A stretch of 64,000 bases of DNA. Origin: Methylobacterium sp. Leaf99 (GTDB lineage: Bacteria; Pseudomonadota; Alphaproteobacteria; Rhizobiales; Beijerinckiaceae). Positions 39,127 through 46,665 of this stretch are shown piece after piece. The notes under the pieces were generated by a model. That model saw nothing but the letters and a program-made list of their open reading frames with translations, ran no database searches and was not told the origin of the DNA. The translations under genes and the position numbers were made by a program. The stretch covers positions 187,006-251,005 of the forward strand of contig NZ_LMMU01000007.1 of the NCBI RefSeq assembly GCF_001422375.1, written 5' to 3'. Position 1 is the stretch's first letter. Each line of letters starts with the position of its first letter.

Positions 39127-41208
39127 TCACGCCGTCCGGCCGCGCCGGCCCTCCACCAGCCACATGGCCAGCACCGCGGCTGCCAGCGCCGCCAGGGCCC
39201 ACAGGCCGAGGGCGAGGGGATAGACCGCGACGCCGCGGATGTTGGCGCTGTCGCTCGGGCGGAAGCCGATCCAGTCGGCGCCGCTCGCCCGCCCGCCGCG
39301 CACGGCCTGGAGGCGCGGCACCACCGTGCCGCCGGCCTCGGCGACGCGGCGGATCGAGCCGCCCGTGGCCTCGGCCAGGGCCTTGAGGCGCTCGGTGTCG
39401 CTGAACACGTCGGCGAGTTCGCGCGGGTTCGGCGGGCCGACGCTGACGAAGGCGACGAGGCCGCCCGAGCGCAGGGTGTGCAGCCCGAGCTGGTCCGCCT
39501 CGAAGGTCGCCGAGAACAGGCCGGGCTCGGCCTGCGCCAGGGTCAGTGTGCGCTCTGTGCCCGTGGGGCCCGTGACGGTGACGGGCTCGACGGTGTCGGC
39601 CATGGTCTGGCGCTCGACGCGGACCTCGCGCCCGCGCCCGGTGGTCTGCGCCCGCAGGGCCTCCTCCTCCAGGGCCGGCTCCTTCATGAGCCAGTGGCCG
39701 AGGCGGCGCAGGAGGTCGAGGTACGGACCGCCCTCCTGGTAGCCCCGCGCCCACAGCCAGGCATGATCCGACAGCAGCAGGGCGACGCGGCCCTTGTCCT
39801 CGCGCGACAGGGCCAGGAGCGGCAGGGCGTTCGGACCCTGCAGGATCGGCTGGATGCCGGGCTTCACCTGGGCCGAGACGATGCGCAGCCAGTCGCCCCA
39901 GGCCGGGGGCGACGCCTCCGAGCCCGGCAGCGCCCGGGTGACGGGATGGCGGGTGCCGATGCCCGTGAGCCCGGCCTTGTAGGGCTGCTCGACGACGCGG
40001 CCGTTGGGCTCGCCCGGCAGGATCGCCGACAGCCGGGTGCGCGACAGGCTCGCCTGGCCCGCGAATTCCGGTCCCGCCGCCACGAGGAGCGCCCCGCCCT
40101 CGCGGACGTAGCGGACGATGTTGTCAAAATAGGCCTGCGGCAGCACGCTCTGATTGGCGTAGCGGTCGAAGATGATCAGGTCGAAATCCTTGATCTTCTG
40201 GACGAACAGCTCCCGCGTCGGAAAGGCGATGAGCGACAGCTCCGAGATCGGCGTGCCGTCTTGCTTCTCCGGCGGCCGGAGAATCGTGAAGTGCACGAGG
40301 TCGACGTTGGCGTCGGATTTGAGCAGGTTGCGCCAGGTGCGCTCGCCCTGGTGCGGCTCGCCCGAGACCAGCAGCACCCGGAGTTTTTCGCGGATGCCCT
40401 CGATGGGCAGCACGGCGCGATTGTTCACGACGGTGAGTTCGCCGGGCAGCGGCTCGACCTCGATCTCGACGACGTTGGGGCCGCCGTGCTCGATCCGCAT
40501 GGTCAGGGAGAACGGCCGTCCCGTCGGGAAGGTGCGCCGTCCCACTTCCTCGCCGTCCCGGCGCACGGTGACGACGGCGTTGCCGGTGCCGCCGCGCTCC
40601 ATCACCTCGGCGCGGACCGTGAGATCGCGCCCGACGATGCCGAAGCGCGGCGCCTCGATGAGCCTGATCTGGCGGTCGCGCTCATCCGGATGGCCGGTGA
40701 CGAGGACGTGGAGCGGCCCCTTGATGCCGAGGGCTGCCGCGGAGGCCGGGATGTCGTGCACCACGCCGTCGGTGAGCATCACCACCCCGGCCAGCCGCTC
40801 GGGCGGCACGTCGGCGAGCGCCTGCGACAGGGCGGTGAACAGCTTGGTGCCGTCGTCGCTGTCCTTGGCGTCGGGCACGTCGACGAAGCGCGGTTCGATC
40901 CCCGTGAGCGCACCGAAGCGGCGCTGGAGCTCGGCCCGCACGGCATCGGTCATGGCCGGCCGGTCCCCGAGGCCCTGCGAGCCCGAACGGTCCACCACCA
41001 CGGCGACGATGTCCTTCACCGGCTCGCGATCCTCCCGGACCAGGGCCGGGTTGGCGATGGCGAGGAGCACCAGGGCCAGCGCCAGGGCGCGCAGGAGGGC
41101 CGTCCCGCCCCGCGCCAGGAGCGCCAGCACGGCGAAGACCGCCACGAGGATTCCGAAGCCGACGAGCACCGGCCACGGCACGAGGGGGGTGAAGCTGAGG
41201 CTCAGCAT
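39127..41208 (-). CDS. Membrane protein of the MoxR/DUF58/DUF4159 cluster (VWA- and glutamine-amidotransferase-like regions)
   Basis: The 693-residue protein has two N-terminal membrane helices (about 10-55) and a von Willebrand A-like block (VAVVVDRSGSQGLGDRPAMTD...VVMLTDGVVHD). A glutamine-amidotransferase-like region follows (RVLLVSGEPHQGERTWRNLL...IIFDRYANQSVLPQAYFDNIVRYV). A C-terminal helix ends the protein (about 660-683). It is the last gene of the moxR cluster. By analogy with BatA/BatB-type proteins it may be a membrane partner of the MoxR chaperone ATPase. It is separated from the rest of the cluster by hicAB. Confidence 0.78.
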   Translation of the reverse strand: MLSLSFTPLVPWPVLVGFGILVAVFAVLALLARGGTALLRALALALVLLAIANPALVREDREPVKDIVAVVVDRSGSQGLGDRPAMTDAVRAELQRRFGALTGIEPRFVDVPDAKDSDDGTKLFTALSQALADVPPERLAGVVMLTDGVVHDIPASAAALGIKGPLHVLVTGHPDERDRQIRLIEAPRFGIVGRDLTVRAEVMERGGTGNAVVTVRRDGEEVGRRTFPTGRPFSLTMRIEHGGPNVVEIEVEPLPGELTVVNNRAVLPIEGIREKLRVLLVSGEPHQGERTWRNLLKSDANVDLVHFTILRPPEKQDGTPISELSLIAFPTRELFVQKIKDFDLIIFDRYANQSVLPQAYFDNIVRYVREGGALLVAAGPEFAGQASLSRTRLSAILPGEPNGRVVEQPYKAGLTGIGTRHPVTRALPGSEASPPAWGDWLRIVSAQVKPGIQPILQGPNALPLLALSREDKGRVALLLSDHAWLWARGYQEGGPYLDLLRRLGHWLMKEPALEEEALRAQTTGRGREVRVERQTMADTVEPVTVTGPTGTERTLTLAQAEPGLFSATFEADQLGLHTLRSGGLVAFVSVGPPNPRELADVFSDTERLKALAEATGGSIRRVAEAGGTVVPRLQAVRGGRASGADWIGFRPSDSANIRGVAVYPLALGLWALAALAAAVLAMWLVEGRRGRTA

Positions 41209-41233
41209 CGGCGTGTGGCCTCCCGAGCCATGG

Positions 41234-41563
41234 TCATGCGGTCGCCCGCTCCAGGGTGCGGGCCACCCACTTGTTCAGGCTGATCCCGGCACGCTTGGCG
41301 GCCGAGACGACGGCCCGGTGAAGAACCGGCTCGACGCGGACGACGAACTGCCCCGAATAGGGCTTCTCCGGCTCCTCGCCGCGCTCGGCGCAGAAGGCGA
41401 GGTAATCGTCGATGCTGTCGGACAAGGCCTGCTTCAACTCATCGACGGATCGCCCCTGGAAGGTGATCACGTCGCGTAAGTTGATCACTTCGCCATGAAA
41501 CAGATCGGCCTCCTCGTCGTATTCGACGAGGGCCTCGTAACCCTTGCAACGCATCATCGTCAT
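41234..41563 (-). CDS. hicB: HicB-family antitoxin
   Basis: The 109-residue protein has the HicB partial RNase H-like fold (YEALVEYDEEADLFHGEVINLRDVITFQG), then SVDELKQALSDSIDDYLAFC. A C-terminal ribbon-helix-helix (FVVRVEPVLHRAVVSAAKRAGISLNKWVARTLE) should bind DNA and autoregulate. Its start overlaps the hicA stop as ATGA. It neutralises HicA. The gene pair interrupts the MoxR cluster, and the next gene starts 25 bases after this stop. Confidence 0.88.
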   Translation of the reverse strand: MTMMRCKGYEALVEYDEEADLFHGEVINLRDVITFQGRSVDELKQALSDSIDDYLAFCAERGEEPEKPYSGQFVVRVEPVLHRAVVSAAKRAGISLNKWVARTLERATA

Positions 41564-41820
41564 GGCGTCATCTCCGCCTCGGTGAGGAAGCGCCTCACGG
41601 ATTTCACCGCACCCCTGTCAGTTTCCTTCTGCGGATGCGGTCGATGGAAGACCGCCCGCACACCATTCAGGGCGACCCGCACGCGGGAGCCCCGGCCTTC
41701 CTCGATCTGCGCGCCGGAGGCCCTCAGCATGGCTTCGATGTCCGACCAGGCGATGCCGGCCCGAACCGGCTCGGCGAAGATCGCTTCGAGGGTCGCGCGA
41801 TGCCTGCCGCTCAAGTTCAT
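41560..41820 (-). CDS. hicA: HicA-family toxin (variant)
   Basis: The 86-residue protein has the HicA double-stranded-RNA-binding-like layout (LEAIFAEPVRAGIAWSDIEAMLRASGAQIEEG, then VFHRPHPQKETDRGAVKSVRRFLTEAEM). HicA toxins are mRNA interferases. The canonical catalytic histidine (GSH) reads GSR here, while the HRPHP block retains histidines, so the active-site residue may differ. No ribosome site is evident before the ATG at 41820. hicB overlaps it by four bases. Toxin-first order is normal for hicAB. Confidence 0.84.
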   Translation of the reverse strand: MNLSGRHRATLEAIFAEPVRAGIAWSDIEAMLRASGAQIEEGRGSRVRVALNGVRAVFHRPHPQKETDRGAVKSVRRFLTEAEMTP

Positions 41821-41824
41821 ATAG

Positions 41825-41839
41825 TATCGCTTTTCGATA
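41825..41839. promoter_or_regulatory. Inverted repeat at the hicA start
   Basis: TATCG-CTTTT-CGATA lies just upstream of the hicA ATG in an AT-rich patch. It is a candidate HicB operator overlapping the promoter. Confidence 0.45.
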
Positions 41840-41887
41840 TCACAAATCGGGGCGATTGCCTCCCCCGGCGTGGTCGCACCCGCCGCC

Positions 41888-44710
41888 TCACTGACCCAAC
41901 CGCTCCAGCAGGGCCGGCACGTGGACCTGATCCGCCTTGTAGTTGCCGGTGAGGGTGTAGATCACGAAGTTGACCCCCCCGCGAAACGCCATCTCGCGCT
42001 GGCGCTCCTCGCCGCCGACGACGGGGTAGAGCGGCTCGCCGCGCTTGCCCACGGCCCAGGCGGCGGCGAGATCGTTGCCCGTGATGACGATGGGCGACAC
42101 CCCGTCCCCGGCCCGCGCCGGGCGACGCTCGGTGCCCTCCGCGGCCGGGGGCAGTGCCTCGACCCAGGTCTGACCGGTGGCGTAGCGGCCGGGGAACGTG
42201 TCCACGAGGTAGAACGCCTTGGTCAGCACGTGGTCGGCCGGGATCGGCTCGAGCTCGGGAACCTCGAGGGTGGAGAGCATGGTGCGGAGATACAGGGCTT
42301 CCGGCGTCGGCGGCCCGCCGGGGCGTGCGGTGAGCGCATCGCGGGTGTCGAACAGGACGGTGCCGCCGTTGCGCATGAATGCGTCGATGCGCCGGATCGC
42401 AACGGCGCTTGGCTGGGGCCTGCCGGCGACGATGGGCCAGTAGATCAGCGGATAGAACGCGAGCTCGTCCTTGGCCGGGTCGATGCCGATGGGGTCGCCC
42501 GGCTCCAGGGCTGTCCGGTTGGCGAGCACCTGCGTCAGGCCGGCGAGGCCGGCGCGGCTCGCCGTGTCCGCCGCCTCGTCGCCGGTGACGACGAAGACCA
42601 GACGCGTGGCGAGGGCCGAGTCGATGCCGTTCGGCCGTCCGGCCGCCTGGGGTTGGCTCTGGGCTTGGGCTTGGGCCCGCGCCGGCATGAGGTTCGGTGC
42701 CGCGAGGCAGAGGATGACGGCGGCGGCCGTGGCGGCGCGGCCGCCGACGCGGCGAAGGAAGCCGCCGAGCCAGAGGCCCGCGAGGGTGTCGAGCAGAAGG
42801 AGCATGAGGGCCAGGGTGAAGAGCGTGGCGCGGAGATCGAGGGTCTCGGCGCCGGCGAGCGACCCCGTGCGGGCGGCGGCCAGGGGGGCGAAGTCGAGGG
42901 GCTTGAGGCGGTCGGCCGCCGTCAGGGCGTTGACGGCGACGCCGCCATCGGCGGGACCGTAGAAGCCGGGCGGATGCTCGAACGAGCCGCGTTCGGCGTA
43001 ATCCCCCGGGACGGCGGTGGCGCCGGCCGGCGGCGTGCCGAGGGCCCCGAACCCATCGAGGGTCAGGCGCGGGGCGAGCACGGCGGCGGGGGGACGGGCG
43101 ACGTCGCCGGCCGGGGCCGCGCCGGTGCCGGCGAGCGCCACCACCCGGCGCAGCATGTCGATGAACAGGCCCGACAGGGGCAGGTTCGACCACGTGGTGT
43201 CGGCGGTGACGTGGAACAGAACCACGAGGCCTTGGCCCCGCTTCTGCGCCGTCACGATGGGCGTGCCGTCCTGCAGGGAGGCCCAGGTGCGGCCGGGCAG
43301 CTCGCCGTCTGGCTCGGCGAGGATCTGGCGCCGCACCCCGATATCGGCCGGGGAGACGAGGCCGGCGAACGGGCTCTCGGGGGCGAAGGCCGCCAGGGTC
43401 TTCGGGCTGTCCCAAGACAGGGTGCCGCCGAGGGTCCGGCCGCCCCGGCGCAGGCGCACGGGCACGAGGGGGTCGTTGCCGGCGGCGAGCCGCGGCCCGG
43501 CGAAGCGCAGGAGCAGGCCGCCCCCGTCCACGAAGGCTTCGACGCGCTCCAGGGTGGCGGCGTCGAGGGCCCCGACATCGGCCAGCACCAGGACGGAGAC
43601 CTGCCCGTCGAGCATCTGCGCCACGGATTCGGCGACGCCCTTGACGCCGCGCGGCTCCTGCACGTCGGCGAAGGGCACCAGGGCGCGGGACAGGTAGTGG
43701 GTCGGGGCCAGGAGCGGCTGGGCCTGATCGCTGGTGCCGCCGAAGACGAGGCCGACGCGGCGGCGCTTGCCGCGCTCGTCCACGAGGGTCACGGCACCGG
43801 CCGAGCGCTCGCCGAGGATCTCCAGGCGGCTGATGCCGTTGCGCAGTTCCACCGGCAGGTCGAAGCCGATCTCGGCCTCCGTGGCACCGTCCGCGAAGGT
43901 GAAACCCTGCTCGGCGAGCGGCAGGCCCTTCTGATCGAGGGCGCGCACGGTTCCGGCGTCGCGGCCATTGGGCGATGCGCGCAGGGCGTGGGCGGTCAGC
44001 CGGCCGCCGGATTCGGCGGCAGACAGGGCGAGGGCCGGCGGACGGTCGGCCCTCAGAATGGTGAGACTGGTGCCGTGCTTGCGGACGAGGTCGGCGAGGC
44101 CCCCGGCGAAGGCGTCCTCGCCCGGCCCCGCGACGCCGTCGCTGATCCACAGGGCGGCCGCACCGGGGCTGCGGTCGAAGAACGCCGCGAGGGCGGGCAG
44201 ATGCGCGCCGCGCGTCGCGAGATGCGGCCGGGGCGCGATGGCGCGCAGGCGTTCGAGCGCGTCGGCGGGCACGCGCACCTCGATGGGCGCGGCCGGTTCC
44301 GCCAGGGCCACCAGGGCCACGGGCCGCCCGTCGCGAGCGGCGGTCTCGACGGCGTCGTCGGCGACCCTCAGGCGCTTGCGCCAGTCGTGGGCGGCAGTGA
44401 ATCCGTTGTCGATCAGCACCACGAGGGGCGTGCGGCCGGCCTCCCCGCCGAGGCCCGACGGATTCCAGACCGGGCCGGAGACGGCGAGGATCAGGAAGGC
44501 GGCGACGAGCAGGCGCAGGATCAGGAGCCAGGGCGGCGTGCGGGCCGGCGTCTCGCGCCTGGGCAGCAGGTCGGCCATGATCGCCAGGGGCGGAAAGTCG
44601 ATGCGGCGCGGGCGCGGCGGCGTCACCCGCAGGAGGAACCACAGGGCCGGCAGGGCGATGAGCGCGGCGAGCGCCAGGGGCGCGGCGAAGGTCAGGGGCA
44701 ATCCGAGCAC
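41888..44710 (-). CDS. DUF4159 membrane protein with BatA-like N-terminus
   Basis: The 940-residue protein has two N-terminal membrane helices with the aerotolerance-regulator pattern (PPRPRRIDFPPLAIMADLLPRRETPARTPPWLLILRLL). A VWA-like or amidotransferase-like periplasmic middle follows. Further helices lie near 630-680, and the C-terminal DUF4159 domain (LVFVVTGDEAAD...FYPLIYWPIVAGRPQPS...GGTVLFDTRDA...HVLTKAFYLVDTFPGRY) closes it. The start is GTG at 44710 with GAGGA upstream, 11 bases after the DUF58 gene. Such proteins accompany MoxR ATPases and DUF58 proteins; the exact role is unknown, and envelope stress or assembly of exported complexes is proposed in the family. Confidence 0.82.
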   Translation of the reverse strand: MLGLPLTFAAPLALAALIALPALWFLLRVTPPRPRRIDFPPLAIMADLLPRRETPARTPPWLLILRLLVAAFLILAVSGPVWNPSGLGGEAGRTPLVVLIDNGFTAAHDWRKRLRVADDAVETAARDGRPVALVALAEPAAPIEVRVPADALERLRAIAPRPHLATRGAHLPALAAFFDRSPGAAALWISDGVAGPGEDAFAGGLADLVRKHGTSLTILRADRPPALALSAAESGGRLTAHALRASPNGRDAGTVRALDQKGLPLAEQGFTFADGATEAEIGFDLPVELRNGISRLEILGERSAGAVTLVDERGKRRRVGLVFGGTSDQAQPLLAPTHYLSRALVPFADVQEPRGVKGVAESVAQMLDGQVSVLVLADVGALDAATLERVEAFVDGGGLLLRFAGPRLAAGNDPLVPVRLRRGGRTLGGTLSWDSPKTLAAFAPESPFAGLVSPADIGVRRQILAEPDGELPGRTWASLQDGTPIVTAQKRGQGLVVLFHVTADTTWSNLPLSGLFIDMLRRVVALAGTGAAPAGDVARPPAAVLAPRLTLDGFGALGTPPAGATAVPGDYAERGSFEHPPGFYGPADGGVAVNALTAADRLKPLDFAPLAAARTGSLAGAETLDLRATLFTLALMLLLLDTLAGLWLGGFLRRVGGRAATAAAVILCLAAPNLMPARAQAQAQSQPQAAGRPNGIDSALATRLVFVVTGDEAADTASRAGLAGLTQVLANRTALEPGDPIGIDPAKDELAFYPLIYWPIVAGRPQPSAVAIRRIDAFMRNGGTVLFDTRDALTARPGGPPTPEALYLRTMLSTLEVPELEPIPADHVLTKAFYLVDTFPGRYATGQTWVEALPPAAEGTERRPARAGDGVSPIVITGNDLAAAWAVGKRGEPLYPVVGGEERQREMAFRGGVNFVIYTLTGNYKADQVHVPALLERLGQ

Positions 44711-44721
44711 GGTGTCGATCC

Positions 44722-45657
44722 TCAGCCGGTCCCGCGCGCGGCGGCGACGAGGGTGAGCAGGCGAAGGGCGGCTTCGCTGGCCGGTCGGTCGGTGCGGTGG
44801 ATGGTCAGGGTCCAGCCCTGGGCGCGGGCGACCTCGGAGAGGCCGGCCCGGTGCTCGGCGATGCGCGCGCGGTAGGCCTCGCCCCAGGCCCCGGCATCGC
44901 CGATGGCGAGGCTCCGGCTCGTCTCGGGGTCGTGCAGGACGGCCTGGCCCGAGAACGGGAAGGTTTCCTCCACGGGATCGACGATCATCACGAGGTGACC
45001 GTGGGTGCCGTGCGCCGCGATGGTCTCCACGGCGGCGCGCACGTCGGCCAGCGGCGACAGGAAATCGCTGATCAGGATCGCTTCGTCGAAGCGGCCCGGC
45101 GTGGCGCGGGGCGGCGTGTCGCGGGTGAGGCCGGCCCGGTCGCCGACGAGGGCCTGGGCCAGGGTCTCGACGATGCGGCGCGAGGTGACGGCGCGGGTGA
45201 GGCCCAGGAGCCCCGTGCGCTCGCCGCCCTCCACCAGGGTGTCGGCGAGGGCGAAGGCCAGGACCAGGGCGCGCTCGACCTTGGGGGCCTGGGCGAGGTG
45301 CGAGGCGAAGCCCATGGAGGCGGAGCGGTCGATCCAGAACCAGATGTTGTGGGCCGCCTCCCATTCGCGCTCGCGCACATACAGCCGGTCGTCGCGGGCC
45401 GAGCGGCGCCAGTCGATGCGCGCGGCGGCCTCGCCGGCGACGAAGGGGCGGAACTGCCAGAAGCTCTCGCCCGGTCCGGCCCGGCGGCGGCCGTGCAGGC
45501 CGTGGGCCAGGGTGGTCGAGACGCGGCGCGCCTCGAGGATCAGGCGCGGCATCCGCTCGGCGAGGGAGAGGGCGCTCTCGGTCTCGCGCCGCCCCGGCGA
45601 TCGGGCCTCGGCGGCGAGCACCCGCGTGGGGGCCATCCGCGTGGGGACCATGGCCAT
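44722..45657 (-). CDS. DUF58 domain protein
   Basis: The 311-residue protein has the DUF58 core GLHGRRRAGPGESFWQFRPFVAGEAAARIDWRRSARDDRLYVREREWEAAHN (near residues 53-104). A MIDAS-like FWIDRSASMGF and a VWA-type remainder (EAILISDFLSPL) follow. DUF58 proteins partner MoxR ATPases. It lies 3 bases after moxR and 11 bases before the DUF4159 gene, so the three are one operon. The start at 45657 is the first in-frame ATG; a start a few codons in is possible. Confidence 0.88.
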   Translation of the reverse strand: MAMVPTRMAPTRVLAAEARSPGRRETESALSLAERMPRLILEARRVSTTLAHGLHGRRRAGPGESFWQFRPFVAGEAAARIDWRRSARDDRLYVREREWEAAHNIWFWIDRSASMGFASHLAQAPKVERALVLAFALADTLVEGGERTGLLGLTRAVTSRRIVETLAQALVGDRAGLTRDTPPRATPGRFDEAILISDFLSPLADVRAAVETIAAHGTHGHLVMIVDPVEETFPFSGQAVLHDPETSRSLAIGDAGAWGEAYRARIAEHRAGLSEVARAQGWTLTIHRTDRPASEAALRLLTLVAAARGTG

Positions 45658-45660
45658 GGG

Positions 45661-46665
45661 CTAGAGCTTGGCCGCGAGCCCGGCGATGAGACCCGGAATG
45701 GTCTCGCCGTCGGCGCGCGCGGCGAAGCTCAGGGCCATGCGGTGCTTGAGGACGGGTTCGGCCAAAGCCTTCACGTCGGCGATGGAGGGCGCGACGCGGC
45801 CCTCGATGAGGGCGCGGGCACGCACCGCCAGGGTCAGGGCCTGGCTGGCGCGGGGGCCGGGTCCCCACAGGAGCTTGCCCTTGAGGGACGGGTCGCCGCC
45901 CTCGGGGCGGGCCGAGCGCACGAGGTCGAGGATCGCATCGACCACGGCATCGCCCACGGGCAAGCGGCGCACGAGGCGCTGGGCCGTGAGGAGCTGCTCC
46001 GTCGTCATCACCGCCTGGGGCTTGTGGTCGTCGACACCCGTGGTCTCGATGAGGATGCGGCGCTCGGCGGCCCGGTCGGGATAGCCGACGTCGATCTCCA
46101 GCAGGAACCGGTCGAGCTGGGCTTCCGGCAGCGGATAGGTGCCCTCCTGCTCGATGGGGTTCTGGGTCGCCAGGACGTGGAAGGGCCGGGGCAGGTCGTG
46201 GCGCTCGCCGGCGACGGAGACGAAATGCTCCTGCATCGCCTGCAGCAGGGCCGACTGGGTGCGCGGACTGGCGCGGTTGATCTCGTCGGCCATGAGGAGC
46301 TGGGTGAAGACCGGCCCCTTCACGAACCGGAACGAGCGGTGCCGGTTGGCGTCCTCGTCCAAGATTTCGGTGCCGAGGATGTCCGAGGGCATCAGGTCGG
46401 GGGTGAACTGGACCCGGCGGCCGTCGAGGCCGAGCACGGTGCCGAGGGTCTCCACCAGCTTGGTCTTGGCGAGGCCGGGTAGGCCGACGAGCAGGCCGTG
46501 GCCGCCGGAGAGGATGGTGATCAGCGAGAGATCGACCACCTGCTCCTGGCCGAAGATGACCTTGTGGACCGCCTCGCGTGCGCCGCCCACGGCCCCGAGA
46601 CACGCCTCCGCCGTGGCGACGATGCCGTCGTCGAGGGTCGTGGCCGGCTGGGAGCCCTGCGTCAT
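45661..46665 (-). CDS. MoxR-family AAA+ ATPase
   Basis: The 334-residue ATPase has Walker A GLPGLAKT near residue 54, Walker B LLMADEINRA near 115, sensor 1 in HVLATQNPIEQEGTYPLPEAQLDRF and the C-terminal lid domain. MoxR ATPases act as chaperones that mature protein complexes; in methylotrophs the founding member acts on methanol dehydrogenase, but this one belongs to the general DUF58-linked group. The ATG at 46665 gives MTQGSQPATT. It heads the operon and is divergent from the DUF1285 gene. Confidence 0.92.
   Translation of the reverse strand: MTQGSQPATTLDDGIVATAEACLGAVGGAREAVHKVIFGQEQVVDLSLITILSGGHGLLVGLPGLAKTKLVETLGTVLGLDGRRVQFTPDLMPSDILGTEILDEDANRHRSFRFVKGPVFTQLLMADEINRASPRTQSALLQAMQEHFVSVAGERHDLPRPFHVLATQNPIEQEGTYPLPEAQLDRFLLEIDVGYPDRAAERRILIETTGVDDHKPQAVMTTEQLLTAQRLVRRLPVGDAVVDAILDLVRSARPEGGDPSLKGKLLWGPGPRASQALTLAVRARALIEGRVAPSIADVKALAEPVLKHRMALSFAARADGETIPGLIAGLAAKL

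Follow-up and report, generated by a model that had tools for sequence, protein, structure and literature searches.

Introduction

Reinitiation of translation between neighbouring genes depends closely on their spacing. In E. coli and Haloferax, according to a section of one study, it requires an overlap between stop and start codon, or a very short distance, and it drops steeply with distance until it is almost gone at ~20 bases (PMC10666635); a bridging open reading frame (ORF) would therefore be needed to pass ribosomes over longer inserts. Mycobacterial interspersed repetitive units (MIRUs), as excerpts of a 2025 review describe them, carry a short ORF within a mobile repeat that is coupled at -4 (PMC12548453). 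Here we describe a junction between a DUF4159 gene and a GATase1_like gene in Methylobacterium sp. Leaf99, where a hicAB toxin-antitoxin (TA) pair lies between the two on the minus strand of the 64,000-nucleotide stretch that we analysed (the window; contig NZ_LMMU01000007.1, positions 187,006 to 251,005). The source genome is 4.65 Mb in size, is placed by GTDB in the genus Methylobacterium and has four HicA_toxin matches in total. From comparison of this junction across the genus, it is quite likely that the site accepts foreign DNA while being selected to remain translatable over its whole length, and that hicAB was captured there as an insert that fits such a relay.

The DUF4159-GATase gap follows a frame rule

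A search for the GATase protein succeeded in 109 of 111 same-genus genomes, and the junction was readable in 108 (G024 and G086 gave no match, and G019 ends at a contig edge). The gap ranged from 4 to 1159 bases, and in 99 of the 108 junctions its length was 1 mod 3, because an open frame, which we call the bridge, links the DUF4159 stop to the GATase start. The bridge begins at a GTG or ATG that overlaps the DUF4159 stop and ends in a TGA (once TAA) inside the ATGCTGA of the GATase start. In 94 junctions it ran open as far as +7 of GATase, with a length that varied from 4 to 389 codons. The DUF4159 stop was a TGA within GTGA or ATGA in 104 of the 108.

When the 69 gaps that measure 79 bases or more were read in all frames (16,388 bases, hicAB and DUF559 rows excluded), the bridge frame held 3 stops, compared with 95 and 127 in the other two sense frames and 58, 62 and 119 in the antisense frames; it was stop-free in 66 of the 69. 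On a tree of 106 of the 108 rows (two short fragments were omitted), independent pairs of unequal gap length differed by a multiple of three in 38 of 44 cases, and in 35 of 37 with hicAB and DUF559 rows excluded (p = 6e-15 against one third).

The pooled ratio of nonsynonymous to synonymous substitution rates (dN/dS) over ten sister pairs was 0.86 for the bridge versus 0.10 for GATase, so the bridge frame is kept while its near-neutral peptide is not. Genes were paired without gaps in this comparison, L086 entered two pairs, and a shift probably accounts for the GATase value of 0.33 in L038/L057. An ORF that is open genus-wide usually implies a product, which would make the bridge a functional, fast-evolving small protein; this is very hard to reconcile with a length of 4 to 389 codons, with the dN/dS of 0.86 and with a common core limited to the region over the ribosome-binding site.

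The inserts themselves varied in sequence and composition (GC 0.51 to 0.75). Exact inverted repeats with arms of at least 10 bases were present in 47 of the 69 long gaps and absent from 22, and the gap RNA was more structured than mononucleotide shuffles, which keep base composition only (mean z -4.9, gaps cut at 400 bases). The inserts resemble several sorts of palindromic repeat and, unlike MIRUs, do not belong to a single dedicated family that carries an ORF of its own. Two gaps illustrate their range. The 1159-base gap of G074 (L019) consists of near-identical tandem palindromic repeats under one 389-codon bridge, and G068 (L012) carries a low-GC (0.57) insert of 199 bases in which a 69-codon bridge is open and another sense frame has seven stops, a count that includes the DUF4159 stop. 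We also considered whether this 199-base gap could be a hicAB remnant, and tblastn gave no match to HicA or HicB at 1e-3.

The bridge frame is -1 relative to DUF4159, so that a translation relay and programmed -1 frameshifting, which would add a tail to the DUF4159 protein, cannot be separated by frame alone. Frameshifting needs no TGA stop, yet a TGA that yields GTG or ATG is kept in 104 of 108 junctions, and the resulting tails would have no common sequence; we regard it as highly improbable. Readthrough and a +1 shift were rejected as sources of the frame: the former would demand a gap of 0 mod 3, and the latter would use the frame after the stop, but stops fall there in long gaps.

Taken together, these data suggest that the gap between the two operon genes must have translation handed across it. 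In the relay that we propose, a ribosome ending at the DUF4159 stop would restart at the overlapping GTG or ATG, would read the bridge ORF whatever its length or sequence, and would terminate on the GATase start, or a few bases from it at most, and begin again there. From the sequences we infer such a relay, a dependence of GATase output upon it and the activities that hicAB would have.

The atp junctions do not show the rule

We used the atp operon of 41 genus genomes as a control. The atpH-atpA, atpA-atpG and atpG-atpD gaps took all phases, and among independent pairs the length differences were multiples of three in 5/13, 7/16 and 2/14 cases, respectively (14/43 pooled, a figure that excludes two small atp gaps with 1/3 and 1/6 multiples of three). 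In the same 41 genomes the DUF4159-GATase junction gave 18/20 (Fisher p = 2.5e-5). The frame constraint is absent from the atp operon, whose gaps reach 211 and 301 bases without it, and TGA was the stop of atpH, atpA and atpG in 17, 19 and 23 of 41 genomes, compared with 104 of 108 for DUF4159.

The junction upstream, DUF58-DUF4159, could not be used to test the rule because its lengths barely vary: of 38 rows, 37 had gaps of 4-13 bases and one was mis-joined (-296), with lengths of 10 and 13 predominating and 28 gaps being 1 mod 3. These rows had taken no inserts. The GATase-to-HD-gene junction was dropped as a control, having 2 usable rows.

Points against end-to-end translation

Several observations weigh against the proposal that the junction is selected to stay translatable. 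Firstly, when the substitutions of pairs with equal gap length were redistributed at random, the frame stayed open in 48-88% of trials per pair; substitutions alone are therefore weak evidence. Secondly, the simple bridge was missing from 14 of the 108 junctions, most of them explained. Three are the hicAB junctions, and in one of these (G085) bridge 1 stops early, giving a two-step relay with a last gap of 6 bases (by eye). In L101 the bridge stop lies 9 bases before the GATase start, and in L056 (G029) the gap length is out of step, a G run being one G shorter than in its neighbours (by eye), reflecting either a true frameshift or a mistake in the assembly. The bridge of L095 is open without a start codon, that of L097 ends at +13, and L067 and L114 relay in two steps. 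In four further rows (L094, L100, L103 and L109) the frame ending at +7 belongs to a DUF559 gene (120-130 bits in the three of them scanned; L100 is partly N), and L110 looks like the remnant of such a gene.

These nuclease-like DUF559 (PF04480) genes lie at the junction on the minus strand (L103:2670-3104, L094:2673-3107, L109:2667-3104), together with L060:2676-3347, one of the 94 open junctions, whose DUF559 domain is within a 223-codon bridge. The DUF559 genes occur at the junction in two separate clades and adjoin palindromic repeats, with which they possibly form a small mobile unit.

Thirdly, single cases outside the genus are weak, because several long gaps there have a second sense frame that is also stop-free and because L186 has a TAG stop with no overlapping start. 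The family sample held 40 members, 38 of them readable, and nine further records brought the readable rows to 47 (one of the nine, L361, is apparently the same as L190 of the family sample). Most of the 38 gaps were shorter than 30 bases; in the five longer ones (57-322 bases) the bridge ended at -4 to +13 of the GATase start. Four of the nine further records had gaps of 35-232 bases; in three of them the bridge ended in TGATG (-1 overlap), and in the fourth it fell 3 bases short. Thus, in all 9 gaps of at least 35 bases the bridge ended no earlier than -4 and no later than +13 relative to the GATase start, and the TGATG endings indicate that other lineages reach the same result by another overlap type.

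Finally, Rho-dependent polarity could also select for translation, in which case the bridge would be kept open across a repeat-rich spacer and not for delivery of ribosomes to the GATase start. Polarity hits untranslated RNA, as one passage of the 2025 review has it (PMC12548453), and long, structured inserts are frequent (mean z -4.9). On the other hand, bridges of 4-15 codons follow the frame rule too, bridge ends sit at or beside the start codon and not just anywhere nearby, and the untranslated-looking gaps of the essential atp genes extend up to 211 and 301 bases without a frame rule. We consider polarity an unlikely reason for the open frame and retain ribosome delivery as the preferred one.

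The hicAB pair fits the proposed relay in the window

In the window, the DUF4159 gene, with a BatA N-terminal region (41888..44710; 940 amino acids; GTG start at 44710), ends in GTGA, whose GTG opens bridge ORF 1 (41817..41891; 24 codons). The TGA of this bridge overlaps the start of hicA in an ATGA (41560..41820; 86 amino acids). hicA and hicB (41234..41563; 109 amino acids, with a C-terminal, RHH-type HicB domain) are both intact and overlap each other by 4 bases, and the ATGA at the end of hicB opens bridge ORF 2 (41202..41237; 11 codons, MTMAREATRRC), which ends in a TGA inside the ATGCTGA of the GATase1_like membrane gene, the final relay link (39127..41208; 693 amino acids; 20.6 bits against the GATase1_like profile, under its cut-off of 27). 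All of these lie on the minus strand. The links are, in order, GTGA, ATGA, ATGA, ATGA and ATGCTGA, with an overlap at every one; stop/start overlap or few-base spacing, as in termination-reinitiation, is thus present at each window link as well as in 94 of the 108 junctions. hicAB would be tolerated at the junction as a relay-compatible module, because its ATGA start, its internal ATGA overlap and the ATGA that opens bridge 2 fit the relay.

Upstream on the same strand, ORF calls and Pfam matches place a DUF58 gene (44722..45657) and a MoxR-type AAA+ ATPase gene (AAA_3; 45661..46665, with the ATG at 46665 picked by eye), so that the order is moxR, DUF58, BatA/DUF4159, hicA, hicB, GATase1_like. 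The gaps are 3 bases for moxR-DUF58, 11 for DUF58-DUF4159, 67 for DUF4159-hicA and 25 for hicB-GATase. An initial annotation of the window had described a complete hicAB unit with 67- and 25-base gaps to its neighbours and a 3-11-base packing of the three preceding genes, and both descriptions agree with the coordinates, the 4-base overlap, the passing of both Pfam cut-offs and the measured gaps. The AT-rich operator that it proposed also has a counterpart: the hicA leader is AT-rich and contains a perfect 5-base dyad, TATCG-AAAAG-CGATA, within GATATC-N7-GATACT (by eye), a putative operator at 41823..41841 on the minus strand. The frame of bridge 1 passes through this dyad. A similar operator-like site directly precedes hicA in 6 of the 8 hicAB copies elsewhere in the genus (by eye). 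Since the module brings its own operator-like site, it could be both autoregulated and read from the moxR operon. A sigma-70 scan with a crude consensus found no promoter-like or terminator-like site in the chain. The suggestion that the last gene is coupled to hicAB transcription holds in altered form: on the sequence evidence the coupling would be translational, a trait of the junction with or without hicAB given the 94 of 108 open bridges.

The chain in G015 is the same as in the window, with a bridge 1 of 26 codons. The hicA leader measured 67, 73 and 61 bases in G000 (the window genome), G015 and G085, 1 mod 3 in each, and in all three the gap bridged by bridge 2 was 25 bases and the hicB stop was an ATGA opening that bridge to ATGCTGA.

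These regularities bear on whether hicAB is an ordinary mobile TA module at a site that is nothing special, its overlaps being coincidental. The module is mobile elsewhere: HicB proteins of 65-86% identity are encoded at other loci in eight genus genomes, and plasmid relatives reach 77% (Shinella), with six records at 60-80% and 1107 lower, one plasmid hicAB adjoining parDE and a mobA gene. In addition, start/stop overlaps are common among bacteria generally, according to part of PMC10666635, and among the 8 other genus copies of hicB, 3 likewise have ATGA or GTGA at the stop. Against coincidence stand a frame rule that is present in genomes without hicAB and fails at the atp junctions, and the bridge from hicB ATGA to ATGCTGA and the leader of 1 mod 3, each in 3/3 junctions. 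A plain mobile module at an indifferent site therefore seems distinctly unlikely, and we favour capture at a site with a frame rule of its own.

hicAB was inserted, most likely once

hicAB occupied the junction in 3 of the 108 genomes (G000, G015 and G085), while the nearest relatives, G081, G058 and G020, have uninterrupted junctions with gaps of 37, 37 and 34 bases; hicAB was thus inserted here and is not ancestral to the genus. This bears out the initial annotation, which had read the pair as inserted and had pointed to the junction in related genomes as the place to look: far from being in all relatives, hicAB is missing even from the closest.

In the flank tree, G000 clusters with empty relatives, and G015 and G085 lie beside six empty relatives. 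In the hicAB tree, which also held 9 further copies from the genus and 10 from the family (L271, without hicA, was omitted), the three junction copies form one clade (99/96) branching as G000,(G015,G085). Third-position identity of hicA and hicB between G000 and G015 or G085 was 0.56-0.68 (flanks 0.64-0.73), and between G015 and G085 it was 0.85 and 0.75, respectively (flanks 0.77-0.80). The joint TGGCTCGGGAGGCC after hicB is common to all three copies and was not seen in empty junctions (by eye), and TGGCTC precedes the native GGGAGGCC in all three.

Given their common clade and this shared right-hand joint, we favour a single entry behind the three copies, with later loss or strain-to-strain exchange. 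Two independent entries, one per subclade, would require just two changes on the flank tree, where a single gain costs about five losses, and the three hicAB flanks were rejected as a monophyletic group (approximately unbiased test, p-AU 7.65e-131). However, the junction copies group apart from the other genus and family copies in the tree, the shared joint is absent from empty junctions, and the third-position divergence of hicAB is close to that of its flanks, so we hold two entries to be rather unlikely. Allelic transfer of hicAB by flank conversion was also rejected: sliding identity along DUF4159 and GATase revealed no long tract in which G000 is closer to G015/G085 than to G081, a scan that leaves room for short tracts, and the sole exception was the first 150 bases of GATase (0.88 versus 0.86 and 0.84).

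With a single entry there would have been ~5 losses in the clade, and the empty junctions of relatives stay in frame, so that clean loss of hicAB looks possible. The earlier idea that losing the pair may be costly is thus not supported.

HicA and HicB match their families by profile, and HicA also by predicted fold

The hicA product scored 45.8 bits against Pfam HicA_toxin PF07927 (cut-off 27) and the hicB product 73.7 bits against HicB PF05534 (cut-off 21); PADLOC gave no match for either. The predicted HicA structure (pLDDT 89.2) has an E. coli HicA-like fold, its top Foldseek match being chain A of E. coli HicAB 6hpb (probability 1.00, E 0.059, TM 0.54/0.76), and Foldseek returned no match at E 0.001 or better. 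The catalytic histidine of HicA3 is His28, as stated in part of PMC11594946. When window HicA was aligned to HicA3 (4p78), the position of the GSH histidine was Arg46, which is invariant in 16/16 aligned HicA relatives, as is His62 of the motif FHRPH. The catalytic histidine of characterised HicA toxins, which is not a criterion of the Pfam family, is thus not present; because arginine replaces it, we count the protein as a HicA family member by profile and predicted fold only and do not claim RNase activity. A large branch of HicA proteins has GSRV, with arginine for the catalytic histidine, plus the invariant FHRPH motif.

Discussion

It is fairly likely that this operon junction is selected for being translated and not for what is translated. 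If so, every tolerated insert, be it a repeat, a foreign fragment, a nuclease gene or a TA pair, would become a translated bridge, and mobile modules of overlapping genes would find a ready landing place, which would explain how a TA pair settled inside a conserved operon without disrupting it. The junction would be a steady supply of new, translated, near-neutral ORFs of up to 389 codons, and thus a place to follow translated, unselected ORFs as they arise and vanish. It would also provide a natural test, in more than 100 species, of whether overlap, and not scanning, is what translational coupling requires. A search of the open-licence literature found no paper on such a frame rule at this operon, and none of the nine hits of one query contained the word DUF4159.

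Compared with HicAB type II TA systems (PF07927/PF05534), the window pair is alike in its profiles, its hicA-hicB order and overlap, its upstream dyad (by eye) and its predicted HicA-like fold. It differs in its setting, a host operon to which it is joined by overlaps at either end, and in having arginine for the catalytic histidine, as do the 16/16 aligned relatives.

Among coupled gene pairs, the link types ATGA, TGATG and ATGnnnnTGA are already known from termination-reinitiation; here, in contrast, direct contact between the two genes gives way to a spacer ORF as the coupled partner, 4 to 389 codons long and not conserved. The intergenic small ORF of a Salmonella Mg2+ transporter likewise promotes translation of the downstream gene, but, as far as the relevant part of that paper goes, it is a single regulatory ORF in one organism and no general rule at a variable insertion site (PMC8092293). 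The nearest precedent is the mycobacterial MIRU, which also places a coupled ORF inside an inserted repeat, as set out in part of PMC12548453. A MIRU brings its own ORF, and this single repeat family is spread over many sites, whereas here one site holds unrelated inserts (palindromic repeats, a low-GC insert, DUF559 genes and hicAB) and selection on the site would keep the frame. What appears to be new is a frame rule that a single site holds in more than 100 species with inserts that are unrelated, a toxin-antitoxin pair among them.
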